Source: Acidobacteriota bacterium
Lineage (GTDB): Bacteria > Acidobacteriota > Terriglobia > Bryobacterales > Bryobacteraceae
DNA length: 64,000 bases
Reading direction: 5' to 3'
Assembly: GCA_026393985.1 (NCBI GenBank)
Contig: JAPKZB010000078.1
Location: forward strand, 124,001 to 188,000
In this document: positions 3,777 through 62,844 of the stretch, piece by piece
How the letters are laid out: each line of letters starts with the position of its first letter
How positions within the stretch are numbered: the stretch's first letter is position 1
Translations under genes and position numbers: made by a program
The notes under the pieces: model-generated
Told to the model about the DNA's origin: nothing
Database searches by the model: none
The model's input: the letters and a program-made list of their open reading frames with translations, nothing else

Positions 3777-5949
<2,173 letters not shown>

Positions 5950-5981
5950 GAGACCAGAATCACCAGTTCGGCCAACTACGA

Positions 5982-5987
5982 TAAAAT
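5982..5987 (+). promoter_or_regulatory. -10-like hexamer of the PQQ/cytochrome c gene
   Basis: TAAAAT lies nine bases before the ATG at 5997, inside GATAAAAT. There is no ribosome-binding sequence between it and the start codon. If used, the transcript would be leaderless or nearly so. This is one of several start-proximal hexamers in the window. Confidence 0.3.
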
Positions 5988-5996
5988 CAAGCGGCC

Positions 5997-8312
5997 ATGA
6001 TCCGCAGCGCCCTTCTCCCCCTCGCCCTCGCGTGTGCCCTCTCCGCGCTAGCCCAACAACCCCCTCCCTCCTACAAAAAATACTGCGCCGCCTGCCACGC
6101 CGACTCCGCCACCGGCACCGACCGCGGCCCCAATCTCATCGACACCCGCTCCCTCCGCTCCCGCTCCCTCACCCAAATTCGCGACCTCATCCGCAACGGC
6201 ACCAAAGGCGGCATGCCCGCCTTCCCCCTCCCCGCCGCCGAACTCGACTCCCTCGCCGCCGCCGTCCACTCCTGGAACGCCTCCGCCTTCGACGCCCACC
6301 CCCCCGGCGACCCCGCCGCCGGCCGCCAACTCTTCGCCCAACAGTGCCAAAACTGCCACACCGTCGCCGGCCAGGGCGGTGCCAACGGCCCCGACCTCTC
6401 CGCCGCCGGCCGCGAACTCACCATCAAAGAGCTCGACGAAACCCTCACCAACCCCTCCTCCCGCAAAGGCCAGCGCAACGGCGCCACCTGCCCCAGCTGG
6501 GCCTTCTGCCCCGACGACCCCTGGGCCGTCGTCACCGCCCGCCTCCGCAACGGCCAATCCCTCCGCGGCTTCGCCCGCAGCCGCGGCCAACACGACCTCC
6601 AACTCCAAACCCTCAACGGCAAAATCGTCTCCCTCACCACCGCCGACTACTCCAAACTCGACTTCGAAAAATCCTCCCTCATGCCCGCCTTCAGCGGCGA
6701 CGCCAGCCAGCGCCAGAACCTCATCGCCTACCTCAGCACCCTCGGTGGCATCGCCCCCGGCCCCGTCTCCGGCCCCGTTCCCCCCGCCACCCCCGCCGAA
6801 ATGCAGCGCGTCCAGCAGCCCGCCCCCGGCCAATGGCCCGGCTACCACGGCCTCCCCTCCGGCAACCGTCACAGCTCCCTCACCGAGATCCACCCCGGCA
6901 ACGCCGCCAACCTCCAATCCGCCTGGACCTACTCCCTTCCCCACCTTGGCCTCCAGACCACCCCCCTCGTCGCCGACGGCATCATGTACGTCACCGCACC
7001 CAACCAGGTCTGCGCCCTCGACGCCCGCACCGGCCGCGAAATCTGGTGCTACCTCCGCTCCCGCACCCAAGCCACCACCATCTCCGGCGACGCCGCCAAA
7101 GGCGCCCAACGCGGCGTCGCCCTCCTCGGCGACCGCGTCTTTTTCCTCACCGACGACGCCCACATGATCGCCCTCCACCGCCTCACCGGCGCCCTCCTCT
7201 GGCAGGTCTACATGCCCACCCCCGGCTCCCCCGGCGCCTACGGTGCCACTGCCGCTCCCCTCGTCGTCGGCGACCTCGTCATCGGCGGCGTCGGCGGCGG
7301 CGATGCCCCCCTGCTCGGCTTCATCGCCGCCTACCGCGCCACCACCGGCGAAGAGGTCTGGCGCTTCCGTACCATCCCCCCCCGCGGCGAAAAGGGCTCG
7401 GAAACCTGGGGCGGCAAAGCCATCAACTACGGCGGAGGCGCCACCTGGTTCACCGGCTCCTACGACCCCGAAACCGCCACCCTCTACTGGCCCACCGGCA
7501 ACCCCTACCCCGACACCGACGGCACCGACCGCGCCGGCGACAACCTCTACACCGACTCCGTCGTCGCCCTCGACGCCAAAACCGGCAAACTCAAATGGCA
7601 CTTCCAGTTCACCCCCCACGACCTCTGGGACTGGGACGCCACCGAACCCCTCCTCCTCGTCGATACCAGGTTCCAGGGCCGCGACCGCAAACTCCTCCTC
7701 CAGGCCAACCGCAACGGCTTCTTCTACGTCCTCGACCGCCTCACCGGCGAGTTCCTCCTCGGCAAACCCTTCGTCGAACGCCTCACCTGGGCCTCCGGCC
7801 TCGATCCCAAAGGACGCCCCATCCTCACCGCCAACAGCAAACCCACCCCCGGCGGCACCAAAACCTGCCCCGCCGTCCGCGGCGCCACCAACTGGTACTC
7901 GACTGCCTTCAATCCCGACACCCGCCTCTTCTACGTCATGGCCGTCGAAGACTGTAACCTCTACCGCCAGGCCGGCAGCTGGTTCGTCCCCTACAACGAC
8001 CCCGCCAACCCCCCCGTCAAACTCCTCCGCGCCCTCGATATCGAAACCGGCAAAATCGTCTGGGAGGTCCCCCAAACCGGCGCCCCCGAAAGCAACTACT
8101 CGGGCGTCCTCTCCACCGCCGGCGGGCTGCTCTTCTACGGCGAATCCGGCGGCACCTTCGCCGCCGCCGACGCCAAAACCGGCAAAACCCTCTGGCACTT
8201 CAACACCGGCCAGGCCTGGAAGGCATCCCCCATGACCTACACTGTCGACGGCAAACAGTACGTCGCCATCGCCGGCGGCGGCAACATCTTCGCCTTCACC
8301 CTCCGGCCCTGA
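5997..8312 (+). CDS. Exported PQQ-propeller dehydrogenase with two N-terminal cytochrome c domains
   Basis: A 771-residue protein starting with a signal peptide (cleavage near ALAQ, residue 20). A first class I cytochrome c follows (CAACH, residues 30-34; likely distal Met73 in GGMPAF), then a second heme site CQNCH (117-121). A stretch resembling the planctomycete-type heme-binding domain (TIGR02603-like) ends in a SSLMPAF Met motif. From about residue 275 the rest is a quinoprotein beta-propeller with repeated ALDARTGREIW / ALDAKTGKLKWHF tryptophan-docking motifs and a WDWDATEP segment. Such enzymes oxidise alcohols or sugars in the periplasm and pass electrons to the attached hemes; the substrate is unknown. 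Heme-first order differs from classical quinohemoprotein alcohol dehydrogenases, which carry the heme at the C-terminus. Third codon positions are almost all C. Confidence 0.85.
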   Translation: MIRSALLPLALACALSALAQQPPPSYKKYCAACHADSATGTDRGPNLIDTRSLRSRSLTQIRDLIRNGTKGGMPAFPLPAAELDSLAAAVHSWNASAFDAHPPGDPAAGRQLFAQQCQNCHTVAGQGGANGPDLSAAGRELTIKELDETLTNPSSRKGQRNGATCPSWAFCPDDPWAVVTARLRNGQSLRGFARSRGQHDLQLQTLNGKIVSLTTADYSKLDFEKSSLMPAFSGDASQRQNLIAYLSTLGGIAPGPVSGPVPPATPAEMQRVQQPAPGQWPGYHGLPSGNRHSSLTEIHPGNAANLQSAWTYSLPHLGLQTTPLVADGIMYVTAPNQVCALDARTGREIWCYLRSRTQATTISGDAAKGAQRGVALLGDRVFFLTDDAHMIALHRLTGALLWQVYMPTPGSPGAYGATAAPLVVGDLVIGGVGGGDAPLLGFIAAYRATTGEEVWRFRTIPPRGEKGSETWGGKAINYGGGATWFTGSYDPETATLYWPTGNPYPDTDGTDRAGDNLYTDSVVALDAKTGKLKWHFQFTPHDLWDWDATEPLLLVDTRFQGRDRKLLLQANRNGFFYVLDRLTGEFLLGKPFVERLTWASGLDPKGRPILTANSKPTPGGTKTCPAVRGATNWYSTAFNPDTRLFYVMAVEDCNLYRQAGSWFVPYNDPANPPVKLLRALDIETGKIVWEVPQTGAPESNYSGVLSTAGGLLFYGESGGTFAAADAKTGKTLWHFNTGQAWKASPMTYTVDGKQYVAIAGGGNIFAFTLRP

Positions 8313-46913: not shown

Positions 46914-47810
46914 CTAACCGAAAATGGCGTCCAAAGCGGGCCGCAGTTCCGGATAGCGGAAGGGAAAACCCGCCGCCTGCGCCGCCGCCGGCTGCACGCG
47001 CTGCGAGGCGAACAGAATCTGCGCCATTTCGCCATACAGCAGCTTCACCCCGAACTCCGGCGCCGGCAGCAGCGCCGGCCGGTGGAGCGCCCCGGCCAAC
47101 TGCCGCGTGAATTCGGCGTTGGTCACCGGGTTCGGCGCCACCCCGTTCACAACCCCGGAGACCGCTTCGTTTTCAACGCAAAACTGAATCATCCGCGCCA
47201 GGTCGTCAACGTGAATCCAGCTCATCCACTGCTTCCCGCTGCCAAGCACCCCGCCCAGACCCCAGCGAAACAGCGGCGCCATCGCCGCCAGCGCCCCGCC
47301 ATCGGCCCCCAACACGATGCCGATGCGCAGCTTCACCACCCGCAGGCCATACTCCCGCGCCCTATCCGCCTCGGCCTCCCAAGCCGTGCACACCTCGGGC
47401 AAAAAGCCGGACGCGGGCGGGGCGCTCTCCGGCAGGACCTCCTCGCCACGGTGGCCGTAGATGCCCACCGCCGAGGCGCAAACCAGCGTCTTCGGCCGGT
47501 GCCGCAGCTTCCCAATCGCCGAAACCAGATGGCGCGTGCCCAGCACGCGGGAGTCCCGGATGGCGGCCTTCACAGCCGGCGTCCACCGCTGCGAAACCGG
47601 CTCCCCGGCCAGATGGATCACCGCCTCGGACCGCTGCAGCAGCTCCCGGCTTGGCTCGCCAGCCGCCGGGTCCCAATGGCCGTAGTGGACGAGCGGGTCA
47701 AGCCGCGGATTCTTCCGGCCGAGGACGACCAGCGAGTGCTGATCAGGAGGATAGAGAGCGAGAAGGCGCCGGCCAATAAAGCCGGTCGCCCCGGATATGG
47801 TCAGGAACAT
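46914..47810 (-). CDS. TIGR01777 family NAD(P)-binding epimerase-like protein
   Basis: A 298-residue extended-SDR protein of the TIGR01777 (YfcH/SDR39U1) family: ISGATGFIGRRLL at the N-terminus, VIHLAGEPVSQRWTPAVKAAIRDSRVLGTRHLV, LVCASAVGIYGHRGEEVLPESAP, RIGIVLGADGGALAAM, WMSWIHVDDLARMI, GVVNGVAPNPVTNAEFTRQLA and a DUF1731-like C-terminus. The reaction is unknown. ATG 47810 overlaps the photolyase stop by 10 bp, so the two are in one operon. Confidence 0.9.
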   Translation of the reverse strand: MFLTISGATGFIGRRLLALYPPDQHSLVVLGRKNPRLDPLVHYGHWDPAAGEPSRELLQRSEAVIHLAGEPVSQRWTPAVKAAIRDSRVLGTRHLVSAIGKLRHRPKTLVCASAVGIYGHRGEEVLPESAPPASGFLPEVCTAWEAEADRAREYGLRVVKLRIGIVLGADGGALAAMAPLFRWGLGGVLGSGKQWMSWIHVDDLARMIQFCVENEAVSGVVNGVAPNPVTNAEFTRQLAGALHRPALLPAPEFGVKLLYGEMAQILFASQRVQPAAAQAAGFPFRYPELRPALDAIFG

Positions 47811-49228
47811 AAGAGCGAGGGTCCCGGGGCGGCATCCTGGCCCGTCCGCAGCATCTGCGCGATGTCCCGCAGATAGCAGTCGACGTCCGTTTTGCGCTTC
47901 ATGCCGTCGAGGGACATAAATCGAATCATGCCAAAAACGCTCCGCTCCTGCCACGGGCGGTCGTGGAGGCCGAAGCACCAGAGAATACCGGTGTACGTAT
48001 TCGGGTCGCGGCCGTCGAGGGCGTACAGGTCGTGGCACTTGATCATCGTTCGCAGCGCGTCGGCGTGGGTGGCGGACCACTCGATGATCTTTTTACCCCA
48101 GTACATGCGATAGTAACCGTGGATCTTGCCGCGCAGGCGCATCTCCTGCTGGCAGGCGTTCCACAGCGCGTCGTGGGTCTCCGCCGCCAGGAACTGCGCT
48201 TCGGTGTAGACGTAGTCGCGGCGGTCGCCGGCGTGTTTGGCCAGCGTCTTGAGCGCCCAATCGGGCAGGCATTCGAGTTGATCGTAGTTCGGGGTGAAGC
48301 GGGCGAAGTTGAAGGCCAACTCGCGGCGCACGATCAGCTCTTCGAGAAACTCAGCGGCGATCAGCTTCTGTTCGGCCGCGTAGCCTTCGACGGCCAGGGC
48401 GATCTCGAGCGTACTGATCATGCCGAAGTGCACATAGGGCGACAGTTCGCTCGTGGCGTGGTTCGAAGGCGAGTTCTTGTCGCGCGCGTAGCGGCTCAGC
48501 CGGTCGATCAGAAAGCGCTGCAGCGACCGCTCGGCCGCCGCGCGGCCGCCGGGGAAGGCGATCGAAGGCGGGATAGAGTGGTCAATCGCGCAGCCGGCTA
48601 CCAGCGCGGCGACGTTTTCCGGGGTGACCGTGACGTGCCAGCGGGGGCGGGGGGCCGTCCACCGGTGCGCGGGCCGGAGCGGCGGCACCGGGACGAGGTG
48701 ATCGGCCAGCATCCGCTTCACCTTCGGGCGCATGGAGTAGGCGGCCCACTCCCGCTTCTCAAACCGGTTCATCGGGATGATGCAGCTCGAATCGACCGCC
48801 TGATACGCCAGCCCCAGCTTGGCGGGGACCGAAGAGTTATGCCAGGAGGCGATGAAGGTCGGGTAGTCGTCGGTCACCACCAGCGCCGCCCGCGCCGCCA
48901 GTTGGTAGAGTACGTCGTTCGGATCCTCCGGCCGCTGCCGGAGATAGAAGCAGTAGCCAATGCCCAGCGCCGCGAGCGCCTCCTGCGTCTCCGGCACGTT
49001 GGCCAGCACGAAGGTGTGAATGCGGTCGTTGGCGTGGGGATAGCTGCAGGTGAGGCCTTCGTAGAACAGCACGGGCAGGCCCAGTTCGTTCGCCTTTTCG
49101 ACGGCGTAGAGCAGCGCGTGGTTAGCCGCCACCCGCCGGTTCATCTGGCACCAATACAGCACGTATTCGGCGCCGGAGGTGCGCAGCGGAGCGTCGTTGA
49201 GCGGGCGAACCCGGTGTTCCAAAATCAC
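47801..49228 (-). CDS. phr: Class II CPD photolyase
   Basis: A 475-residue flavoprotein that uses blue light to split cyclobutane pyrimidine dimers. Class II signs are AEYVLYWCQMNRRVAANHALLYAVEKANELG at the N-terminus (MTHF-type antenna domain), FLEELIVRRELAFNFARFTPNYDQLECLPDWALKTL in the helical domain, and GKIHGYYRMYWGKKIIEWSATHADAL close to the FAD and Trp relay. The start is GTG 49228. It is complete, so the separate photolyase-like cassette at 60792-62070 is not a replacement. Divergent from the radical SAM gene with 49 bp between starts. Confidence 0.93.
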   Translation of the reverse strand: MILEHRVRPLNDAPLRTSGAEYVLYWCQMNRRVAANHALLYAVEKANELGLPVLFYEGLTCSYPHANDRIHTFVLANVPETQEALAALGIGYCFYLRQRPEDPNDVLYQLAARAALVVTDDYPTFIASWHNSSVPAKLGLAYQAVDSSCIIPMNRFEKREWAAYSMRPKVKRMLADHLVPVPPLRPAHRWTAPRPRWHVTVTPENVAALVAGCAIDHSIPPSIAFPGGRAAAERSLQRFLIDRLSRYARDKNSPSNHATSELSPYVHFGMISTLEIALAVEGYAAEQKLIAAEFLEELIVRRELAFNFARFTPNYDQLECLPDWALKTLAKHAGDRRDYVYTEAQFLAAETHDALWNACQQEMRLRGKIHGYYRMYWGKKIIEWSATHADALRTMIKCHDLYALDGRDPNTYTGILWCFGLHDRPWQERSVFGMIRFMSLDGMKRKTDVDCYLRDIAQMLRTGQDAAPGPSLLCS

Positions 49229-60791: not shown

Positions 60792-60938
60792 GTGAAGGGC
60801 GTCAAGAAGCAGCACCTGCCGGAGAAGATCTGCCGGCGCTGCGGGCGGCCGTTTACCTGGCGCAAGAAGTGGGAACGGGATTGGGAGCAGGTGCTCTACT
60901 GCAGCGACCGCTGCCGCGGCGCCAAGGGGAAGGGATGA
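60792..60938 (+). CDS. DUF2256 zinc-ribbon peptide
   Basis: A 48-residue protein. The whole length is the DUF2256 domain: [21 protein letters not shown] followed by YCSDRCRG, i.e. CxxC and CxxxC pairs that should bind zinc. DUF2256 genes are often found beside cryptochrome/photolyase-family genes; this one overlaps the next gene by 4 bp (ATGA). GTG 60792 gives the full domain; CGGGAA precedes it. A role in assembly or regulation of the photolyase-like proteins is inferred from position only. Confidence 0.88.
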
Positions 60939-61702
60939 GAAGAGATTTTGGCTCGCGCGCAGAGCTGGTGGATTATGTGAAGCAGGAGTTCCCGGAGTGC
61001 CTGGAGCATGGGGAGCAGGTGAGTGAGACACGGGGCGGGCGGCGGGCGGCCGAGGCGCTGCTTGAGAAGGTGAATCCGGACCGGTATGCCCGGTCGCGGA
61101 ACTTTTTGAGCGGGGCGGTGACGCGCCTGGCGCCTTACCTCCGGCACGGGGTGCTGTCGCTGGGCGAGGTGCGGCGGCGGGCGCTGGCGAAGCCGAATCA
61201 CGAAAAGCTGGTGAACGAGTACGCGTGGCGGGATTACTGGCGCCGGGTGTACGGGCAGATTGGCGAGGGGGTGTGGAAGGACCGCGAGGAGCCGAAGCGG
61301 CGTTGGCGGAGCGCGCGGGAGCAGACCGCGCTACCGGAGGACATTGCGGGCGCGCGGACGGGCCTTGCGTGCATGGATGGGTTTGTGTCGGAGTTGATTT
61401 CGACCGGCTATGTGCACAATCACGCCAGAATGTGGTTTGCGTCGTATGTGATTCACTGGCGGCGGGTGCGGTGGCAGGCGGCGGCGAAATTTTTTTTAAC
61501 GCATTTACTTGACGGGGACCCGGCGAGCAATAATTTGTCGTTTCAGTGGGTGGCATCGACCTTTGGGGCCAAGCCCTATCTGTTCAACCGGGAGAACCTG
61601 GAGAAGTACACCGATGGGAAGTTTTGCCGGGGGTGTGCGCGGGCCAACGATTGTCCGTTTGGCAAGTCCTACGAGCAGATTGACGAGGAGTTGTTCCAAT
61701 GA
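60935..61702 (+). CDS. Stand-alone photolyase/cryptochrome FAD-binding domain with Cys-rich tail
   Basis: A 255-residue protein equivalent to only the C-terminal helical FAD domain of photolyases/cryptochromes. Matching blocks in order: [79 protein letters not shown] with the Asn pair that lies at flavin N5. A C-terminal tail [12 protein letters not shown] (C-x2-C-x5-C) follows where other photolyases have their last helices. No antenna domain precedes it: ATG 60935 overlaps the DUF2256 stop. The next gene encodes a shrunken antenna-like domain. Function probably light- or redox-linked flavin chemistry. Confidence 0.85.
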
Positions 61703-62070
61703 AGCCAGTGGTTTGGATGCACGAGGATTGTTTGCGGCCGATTGTGCCGGGGGCGCCGGCGATTTTTGTTTTTGAGAGCAATGGCCATTCGCTGAAGCGG
61801 CTGGTGTTTCTCTACGAGTGCCTGCTCGAGCTGGACGTGGAGATTGAAAAGGGCGAAATTGTGCCGCTGGTGCGGTCGTTCGCGGCGCGGCATGGGGCCG
61901 ACAAGATTGTGACGGCGTTCACGGAGTGTCCTCGGCTGATGGGTTACGCCAAGACGCTGGGGGCGGAGGTGGTAAACGACGATCCGTTTGTGGCGGCGGC
62001 GGGGCCGTTCGATTTGAAGCGGTTTTCGCGCTACTGGCAGCGGATTGAGCGGCAGGCCTTAAAGCTTTAG
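61699..62070 (+). CDS. Short photolyase N-terminal-domain-like protein
   Basis: A 123-residue protein. The opening VVWMHEDCLRP resembles the photolyase start (VWFRRDLRL), then AIFVFESN, RLVFLYECLLELDVEIEKGE (photolyase F-L-x-E-S-L-x-D-L helix), AARHGADKIVTAFTECPRLMGYAKTLG, and GPFDLKRFSRYWQRIERQ. The order fits a shortened alpha/beta antenna domain. It overlaps the FAD-domain gene by 4 bp (ATGA), so the two are made together, in reverse order to a normal photolyase. The relationship is inferred by eye and is weaker than for the FAD domain. The end overlaps the convergent LytTR gene by 12 bp. Confidence 0.7.
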   Translation: MKPVVWMHEDCLRPIVPGAPAIFVFESNGHSLKRLVFLYECLLELDVEIEKGEIVPLVRSFAARHGADKIVTAFTECPRLMGYAKTLGAEVVNDDPFVAAAGPFDLKRFSRYWQRIERQALKL

Positions 62071-62844
62071 GAGCGAGCGGAGGCGCTTGGTCTGCACGCG
62101 GCTGACGGGGACCTCGGTGCCGCGCTTGTCATCCATTTTCAGTTGGAAGCTGGACTTGAACCAGGGGATGACTTCCTTGATGCGGTTGATGTTGACGAGC
62201 CAGGAGCGGTGGACGCGCCAGAAGGTGTCGGGGTCGAGCGTGGACTGGAGCTCTTCGATGGTTTTGTAGGTGGATTCGCCTTCGAGGCCCTGGCAGACGA
62301 TGGTGATGAGGCCGTCGTCGATGGTGGCGAAGATGATGTCCTGGGAGTCGACGATGAGGTTGCGGTTGTCGCGGCGGATGAGGATTTTGGCGCGGACGGG
62401 CCCGGTGCGGACGATGATGGGGCCTTCGGGGGCGGGTTTCTGGCGATCGGCGATGGTGCGGCGGGCGCGGTCGATGGCCTGCGCAAGGCGTTCCTTCTCG
62501 ATGGGCTTGAGGATGTAGTCCATGGCTTCGAGTTGGAAGGCTTCGACGGCGTAGTGGTCGAAGGCAGTAGCGAGGATGAAGTGGGGGAGAGGGATCTCTT
62601 TTTCGCGGAGTCGTTTGATGACGCCGAGGCCGTCGAGGCCCGGCATTTGGACGTCGAGGAAGGCGAGGTCGGGTTCGAGGTCCTCGATGAGTTTGACGGC
62701 TTCGAGACCGTTCGAGGCGGTGGCGGCGACTTCGATATCGGGGAAGTCTTTGAGGAGGAAGGCGAGTTCATCGCGGGCGAGGGCTTCATCGTCGACGAGG
62801 ATGGCCGTGATGGTTTGCGGGGGAGCGGCGGCGCGGCTTTGCAT
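62059..62844 (-). CDS. LytTR-family response regulator
   Basis: A 261-residue regulator of the LytR/AlgR type. The receiver has ILVDDEALARDEL, phospho-acceptor Asp64 in LAFLDVQMPGLDG and Lys in YILKPIEKERL. The LytTR DNA-binding domain (about residues 150-261) shows DIIFATIDDGLITIVC, DTFWRVHRSWLVNINRIKEV and a conserved end with EVPVSRVQTKRLRSLL. No sensor kinase gene is adjacent. The start is ATG 62844, 32 bp from the divergent epimerase gene. Confidence 0.93.
   Translation of the reverse strand: MQSRAAAPPQTITAILVDDEALARDELAFLLKDFPDIEVAATASNGLEAVKLIEDLEPDLAFLDVQMPGLDGLGVIKRLREKEIPLPHFILATAFDHYAVEAFQLEAMDYILKPIEKERLAQAIDRARRTIADRQKPAPEGPIIVRTGPVRAKILIRRDNRNLIVDSQDIIFATIDDGLITIVCQGLEGESTYKTIEELQSTLDPDTFWRVHRSWLVNINRIKEVIPWFKSSFQLKMDDKRGTEVPVSRVQTKRLRSLLKL

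Follow-up and report, generated by a model that had tools for sequence, protein, structure and literature searches.

Within the 64,000-nucleotide stretch of DNA analysed here (the window), three adjoining genes, designated Z, F and R (Table 1), were confirmed, of which F and R probably specify a two-subunit Fe-S photolyase for cyclobutane pyrimidine dimers (CPD), of the short photolyase-like (SPL) or Phr4/Phr5 kind, in which the order of the domains is reversed. The FAD domain is encoded first, by F, and the antenna-type domain follows as the product of R. The arrangement is real and conserved, and F-R is a further case of a design published for marine cyanobacteria.

Table 1. The Z-F-R locus and related genes of the same genome (numbered positions are those of the window)
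Feature	Position	Strand	Description
Z	60792-60938	+	48-aa DUF2256 peptide, GTG start; TRASH-clan, metal-binding type
F	60935-61702	+	255-aa FAD domain of a photolyase, no antenna domain; SPL/Phr4 ("short photolyase-like") type with Fe-S
R	61699-62070	+	123-aa antenna-type alpha/beta domain protein; putative partner of F (Phr5 type)
ATGA overlap, Z stop and F start	60935-60938	+	
ATGA overlap, F stop and R start	61699-61702	+	
Cys146 codon of F	61370-61372	+	first of four predicted Fe-S ligands
Cys231 codon of F	61625-61627	+	predicted Fe-S ligand
Cys234 codon of F	61634-61636	+	predicted Fe-S ligand
Cys240 codon of F	61652-61654	+	predicted Fe-S ligand
Response_reg + LytTR gene	62059-62844	-	converges on R, 12-base overlap
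Class II photolyase	47801-49228	-	best match TIGR00591, 412.8 bits, under the model cut-off of 550
PF00875/PF03441 protein	contig C92		same genome
PF04244 protein	contig C54		same genome

The 4-bp overlaps by which the earlier note had joined the three genes were confirmed at both junctions. The locus lies on contig C37 of a 5.9-Mb genome (G000) and is adjoined on its upstream side by a DUF218 gene; F is 95% identical to the F of a Bryobacteraceae (Acidobacteriota) record. In comparisons with the related loci L003 and L004, dN/dS values of 0.02-0.16 were obtained for Z, F and R, with the dS of Z saturated against L003. A sequencing frameshift as the source of the F/R split was ruled out, because the identical junction recurs in related genomes.

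The sole Pfam match of F was FAD_binding_7 (PF03441, E 5.3e-19), which upholds the reading of F as a photolyase FAD domain only; the N-terminal antenna domain that marks a class I photolyase is absent from the chain. The best PDB sequence match of F was a photolyase (2e0i, E 2.5e-15), and the E. coli photolyase chain also aligned to it. The active site was compared in an alignment of 92 FAD domains at E. coli positions E274, W277, N341, M345, N378 and W384, which we take, in both numbering and role, to be the CPD active-site positions. All six E. coli letters are present in the F of the window, and they are kept in the window clade (4/4 rows), in the other non-fused rows (19/19) and in the rows where F and R are fused (17/17), with the exception of W277, which is replaced by Y in four of the 17 fused rows. 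In the three PF04244 proteins of the alignment, one of them from this genome, E274 is replaced by Q, N341 by H, M345 by L and W384 by Y or F. As Q is also found at the E274 site in four of the five class I rows, this site is a poor marker of type. The R342 site is His in F and its relatives, compared with Arg in the class I rows, and the W382 (electron-relay) site is Phe throughout the window clade (4/4), different from all 36 other non-fused and fused rows.

The C-x2-C-x5-C motif with which F had been said to end is indeed present (residues 231, 234 and 240), but it does not stand at the very end, as 15 residues follow it. Together with a fourth conserved cysteine at residue 146, these residues are invariant in a 34-row alignment (A1), which leaves out the close loci L002, L005, L010, L025, L034, L035 and L038, and they share alignment columns with four cysteines in all three PF04244 proteins. 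No PF04244 match was found by Pfam in F or R, and the active-site residues are also unlike those of PF04244, which distinguishes the pair from the Fe-S (6-4) photolyases of that family. Taken together, the CPD-type residues and the cysteines in PF04244 columns suggest that F combines a mostly CPD-type active site with a (6-4)-type Fe-S module.

The association of F with R was examined in the close loci, L001 (the window itself) to L040, among the best 80 of 583 F-relative loci. R is present in 37 of these 40 loci. F runs to the contig end in L005, and no R was found within the available sequence around F in the two Chloracidobacterium loci, L020 and L022; in the latter two (F near 5947-6753) a pyridine nucleotide-disulphide oxidoreductase gene comes next, as identified by Pfam on L020. 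In 17 of the 40 loci a single reading frame encodes both, with F in front; these loci belong to Methylophilaceae, Granulicella-type Acidobacteriaceae and a Rhodospirillales bin and include L025, cut by a contig end. These natural fusions carry the FAD domain first within one chain and thus bear out the reversed order proposed earlier. In the 20 split loci the genes overlap by 4 bases (16 loci), 1 base (two) or 8 bases (one), and the start of R was not located in L010. A quick tree of 60 F rows, calculated without 29 of the 41 Phr7-like rows and the three CPF rows, requires a minimum of two changes between fused and non-fused forms; it carried a warning of long branches meeting, and its rows called split include L005, L020 and L022, for which no R was found.

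The same association was observed in 120 genomes of the order, where F (E <= 1e-20) was found in 25 and R (E <= 1e-3) in 26, with R in all 25 of the F-bearing genomes; the lack of co-occurrence that was to have spoken against the earlier reading was seen neither here nor in the close loci. At 25 of the 26 F matches R lies no more than 27 nt from where the match ends; the exception is G115, in which F reaches the end of a contig and R is on a different one. The p-values of the Fisher tests on the co-occurrence of Z, F and R ignore shared ancestry. In one genome, G020 (98% complete), R is present (L166, 2274-2810, minus strand) and no F match was found at E 1e-20.

Several individual loci may be described in addition. 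In G004, of the same genus as the window, F, R and a full-length photolyase-family gene, the start of which is placed near 1492, lie in a row (L091, 198-2910). The contig of L036 is titled Candidatus Paceibacterota, and its F-R pair falls inside a Verrucomicrobiota group, indicative of mis-binning or gene transfer. On the Deinococcus plasmids NZ_CP044989.1, NZ_CP031163.1 and NZ_CP034186.1, matches to F and R were found about 100 bases apart, under features named "FAD-binding domain-containing protein".

R had been described as resembling a shortened antenna/Rossmann domain, and the structural evidence supports a photolyase-type alpha/beta fold. An AlphaFold model of the R of the window, built from 33 rows, had a mean pLDDT of 88.1 and a pTM of 0.74, with lower confidence past residue 90. 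Searched by Foldseek against 350,542 PDB chains, the model gave 3 matches at E <= 0.001 and 1310 at E <= 10, and all 50 of the matches listed were cryptochromes or photolyases, with E-values of 7.6e-4 to 9.9e-3 and query-normalised TM-scores of 0.44-0.64. Given the alpha/beta fold of R and the helical nature of the FAD domain, we infer that the matched part of these targets is the N-terminal domain. In agreement, an hhalign comparison of the R family with eight N-domains of class I reached 87.5% (121 columns; E 3.6e-6, for a single comparison), and that with the N-domains of another family type a weak 30.9%. R also matched the C-terminal part of Phr7-like proteins (95.5%); as the direct comparison of that part (39 tails) with N-domains failed (3.1% for class I, 0.8% for the other type), the link of Phr7 to antenna domains is an indirect one, through R. 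The outcome that was to have spoken against the pairing, a predicted structure of R unrelated to photolyase N-domains, was not seen.

It is very improbable that R is a Rossmann-type protein without relation to photolyases that happens to lie next to F. Such a reading could draw on the modest Foldseek E-values and on sequence searches, in which neither Pfam nor NCBIfam gave a match for R and PDB gave none that was meaningful, its single row being a 30S ribosomal protein S1 (E 0.48) that we took as chance. It is contradicted by the uniform identity of the listed fold matches, by the natural fusions and by the co-occurrence of the two genes. The natural fusion of L008, modelled as a single chain, gave a confident structure (pLDDT 91.2, pTM 0.92) with photolyases as its best PDB fold matches, and in this model the F and R domains are predicted to pack together.

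Z is a clear member of the DUF2256 family (PF10013, E 3.6e-22, 78.7 bits against a curated cut-off of 25) and the single DUF2256 match in the genome. The family is placed in the TRASH clan (PMC4047054, as far as the available text goes), no function is given for it in the literature passages that name it, and no literature was found in which "photolyase" and "DUF2256" are mentioned together. Within the order, the link between Z and F is strong: Z was found in 30 of the 120 genomes, including 23 of the 25 with F, and it lies 14-57 nt upstream of F, match end to match end, at 20 of the 26 F matches. Z occurs without F in seven of the 120 genomes. Directly downstream of Z, another photolyase-family gene takes the place next to it in L135, L137 and L139, and Z is near a PF04244 gene in L157. 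In two loci of the same order, L118 and L123, Z-F is followed by another photolyase-family gene, and in these two loci and in L136 an upstream gene, encoded on the other strand, is a match to the L157 PF04244 protein. Other DUF2256 genes lie downstream of genes for FAD enzymes, of the DAO type (glycerol-phosphate-oxidase-like) in L114, L116 and L117 and of the Amino_oxidase type in L130 and L131, one of each kind having been scanned with Pfam and the rest assigned by sequence match. Because of these neighbours, DUF2256 was considered as a general marker of FAD enzymes; the idea was not adopted, since these cases are drawn from a small number of genera and 21 of the 22 Z loci that lie outside the order (L143-L164) had no match to the five query proteins, the remaining one having a match.

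The earlier note knew of no characterised example of such a design, but one has been published. The Synechococcus genes phr4, phr5 and phr6 share this layout, and both mutants and expression have been described for them (PMC9426592, mBio 2022, as far as its available text goes): in phr4/phr5 of Synechococcus RS9916 and phr6 of Cyanobium, as here, the FAD domain comes first and the photolyase domain second, in two adjacent genes or one fused gene. The four cysteines of F (C146, C231, C234 and C240) have exactly the spacing, 85, 3 and 6, of those in Phr4 of RS9916 (C169, C254, C257 and C263). Unlike phr4/phr5, which could be compared through the text of that paper, the genes here overlap by 4 bases and have a DUF2256 gene in front. 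None of the best 80 of 583 F-relative loci is cyanobacterial by record title, and no other split or reversed photolyase was found in the literature by title. F-R is thus not a new design, since phr4/phr5, and the reversed Phr7, had already been published.

SPLs (Xu et al. 2021, as described in PMC9649867, PMC9178010 and PMC9498864) are mentioned in the available passages as having an Fe-S cluster and are described there as lacking an antenna domain; in contrast, an antenna-type domain follows the FAD domain here and in the fused relatives. The available text of PMC9426592 also gives Phr7/NewPHL (Emmerich et al. 2020) as reversed, with the FAD domain first, and that of PMC13274461 ascribes an inverted domain topology to NewPHLs and SPLs. 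L041-L081, which we regard as being of the NewPHL/Phr7 type, share the active-site letters of F; however, they are single chains with an incomplete Fe-S cysteine set and form a separate group in the tree, and F-R does not show this combination of features. The PF04244 Fe-S (6-4) photolyases (PhrB/FeS-BCP), which have the four cysteines in the same columns, differ in their normal domain order and in their active-site residues, and are represented by a separate gene in this genome.

For Phr4/Phr5, a (6-4) photolyase was predicted by the authors from the Fe-S cysteines, and the available text of PMC9426592 reports that survival after UV-C, but not after UV-B, was reduced when phr4/phr5 had been lost. 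The same activity for F-R would agree with the position of its four cysteines and with this mutant phenotype, and the E274 site alone does not tell the types apart. However, the N341, M345 and W384 sites of F are CPD-type, unlike those of the three PF04244 proteins; a (6-4) role could instead fall to the separate PF04244 protein of this genome; and SPLs and NewPHLs are called CPD enzymes, or similar to them, in the passages available from secondary sources. We therefore regard a (6-4) specificity of F-R as improbable.

Nearly the same low probability is given to F-R being a blue-light sensor or redox protein without a role in DNA repair, perhaps acting with the neighbouring response regulator. 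The regulator gene also lies beside R in L002, L003 and L004, the other loci of the window clade, which keeps a sensor role in play, and the Phe at the W382 site is likewise confined to this clade. Furthermore, family searches found four photolyase-family members in the genome, the F-R pair and three others, among them the intact class II photolyase that had been noted at 47801, and these others could perform repair; in addition, the protection of E. coli from UV-C by phr4/phr5 was not significantly different in the light and in the dark (PMC9426592, available text). Against a sensor, the lesion-contacting residues are kept in all four clade rows, the regulator was not found at E 1e-10 at the other 33 R loci (nine of which have less than 3.5 kb after R), and it is convergent on R and hence not in the same transcript. 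Because the CPD-type active-site residues are conserved, repair appears to be the simpler reading. The points that count against CPD repair in particular are the His at the R342 site, the ambiguity of E274, the Phe at W382, the loci L020 and L022, where R was not found beside F, and the genome G020, where R has no F match, the shortness of R (123 aa) relative to PF00875 (164 positions) and the adjoining LytTR gene, together with the (6-4) prediction, the effect of the mutation on survival after UV-C and not UV-B and the lack of a significant light/dark difference reported for phr4/phr5.

Under the preferred reading, a two-subunit Fe-S CPD photolyase, F and R would be made as translationally coupled, separate polypeptides and would assemble as subunits of one enzyme. 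F would bind FAD and hold the lesion, and its reduced, light-excited flavin would donate an electron by which the cyclobutane pyrimidine dimer is split. R would pack against F as an alpha/beta (antenna-type) domain, contributing stability and perhaps light harvesting, and the four cysteines of F may carry a [4Fe-4S] cluster that is either structural or redox-active. Z may be a small metal-binding companion of the pair, with a putative helper or signalling role as proposed earlier. A wider proposal, which we consider doubtful, is that the three products make up a single three-part Fe-S photolyase system, with DUF2256 as a dedicated assembly factor for metal, Fe-S cluster or flavin and with F uniting a CPD-type site and a (6-4)-type Fe-S module; the "antenna-less" SPLs would then be back-to-front photolyases, with the antenna domain perhaps a separate subunit.

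With these observations, the reversed two-gene design described for photolyases of picocyanobacteria is extended to Acidobacteriota, Verrucomicrobiota and Betaproteobacteria, and naturally split and fused forms of F-R become available for comparison. The CPD repair predicted for F-R runs counter to the published (6-4) guess for Phr4/Phr5. SPLs have been proposed to be ancestors of photolyases that lack an antenna, a view for which it matters that 37 of the 40 close Fe-S SPL relatives sampled here are accompanied by an R-type domain.
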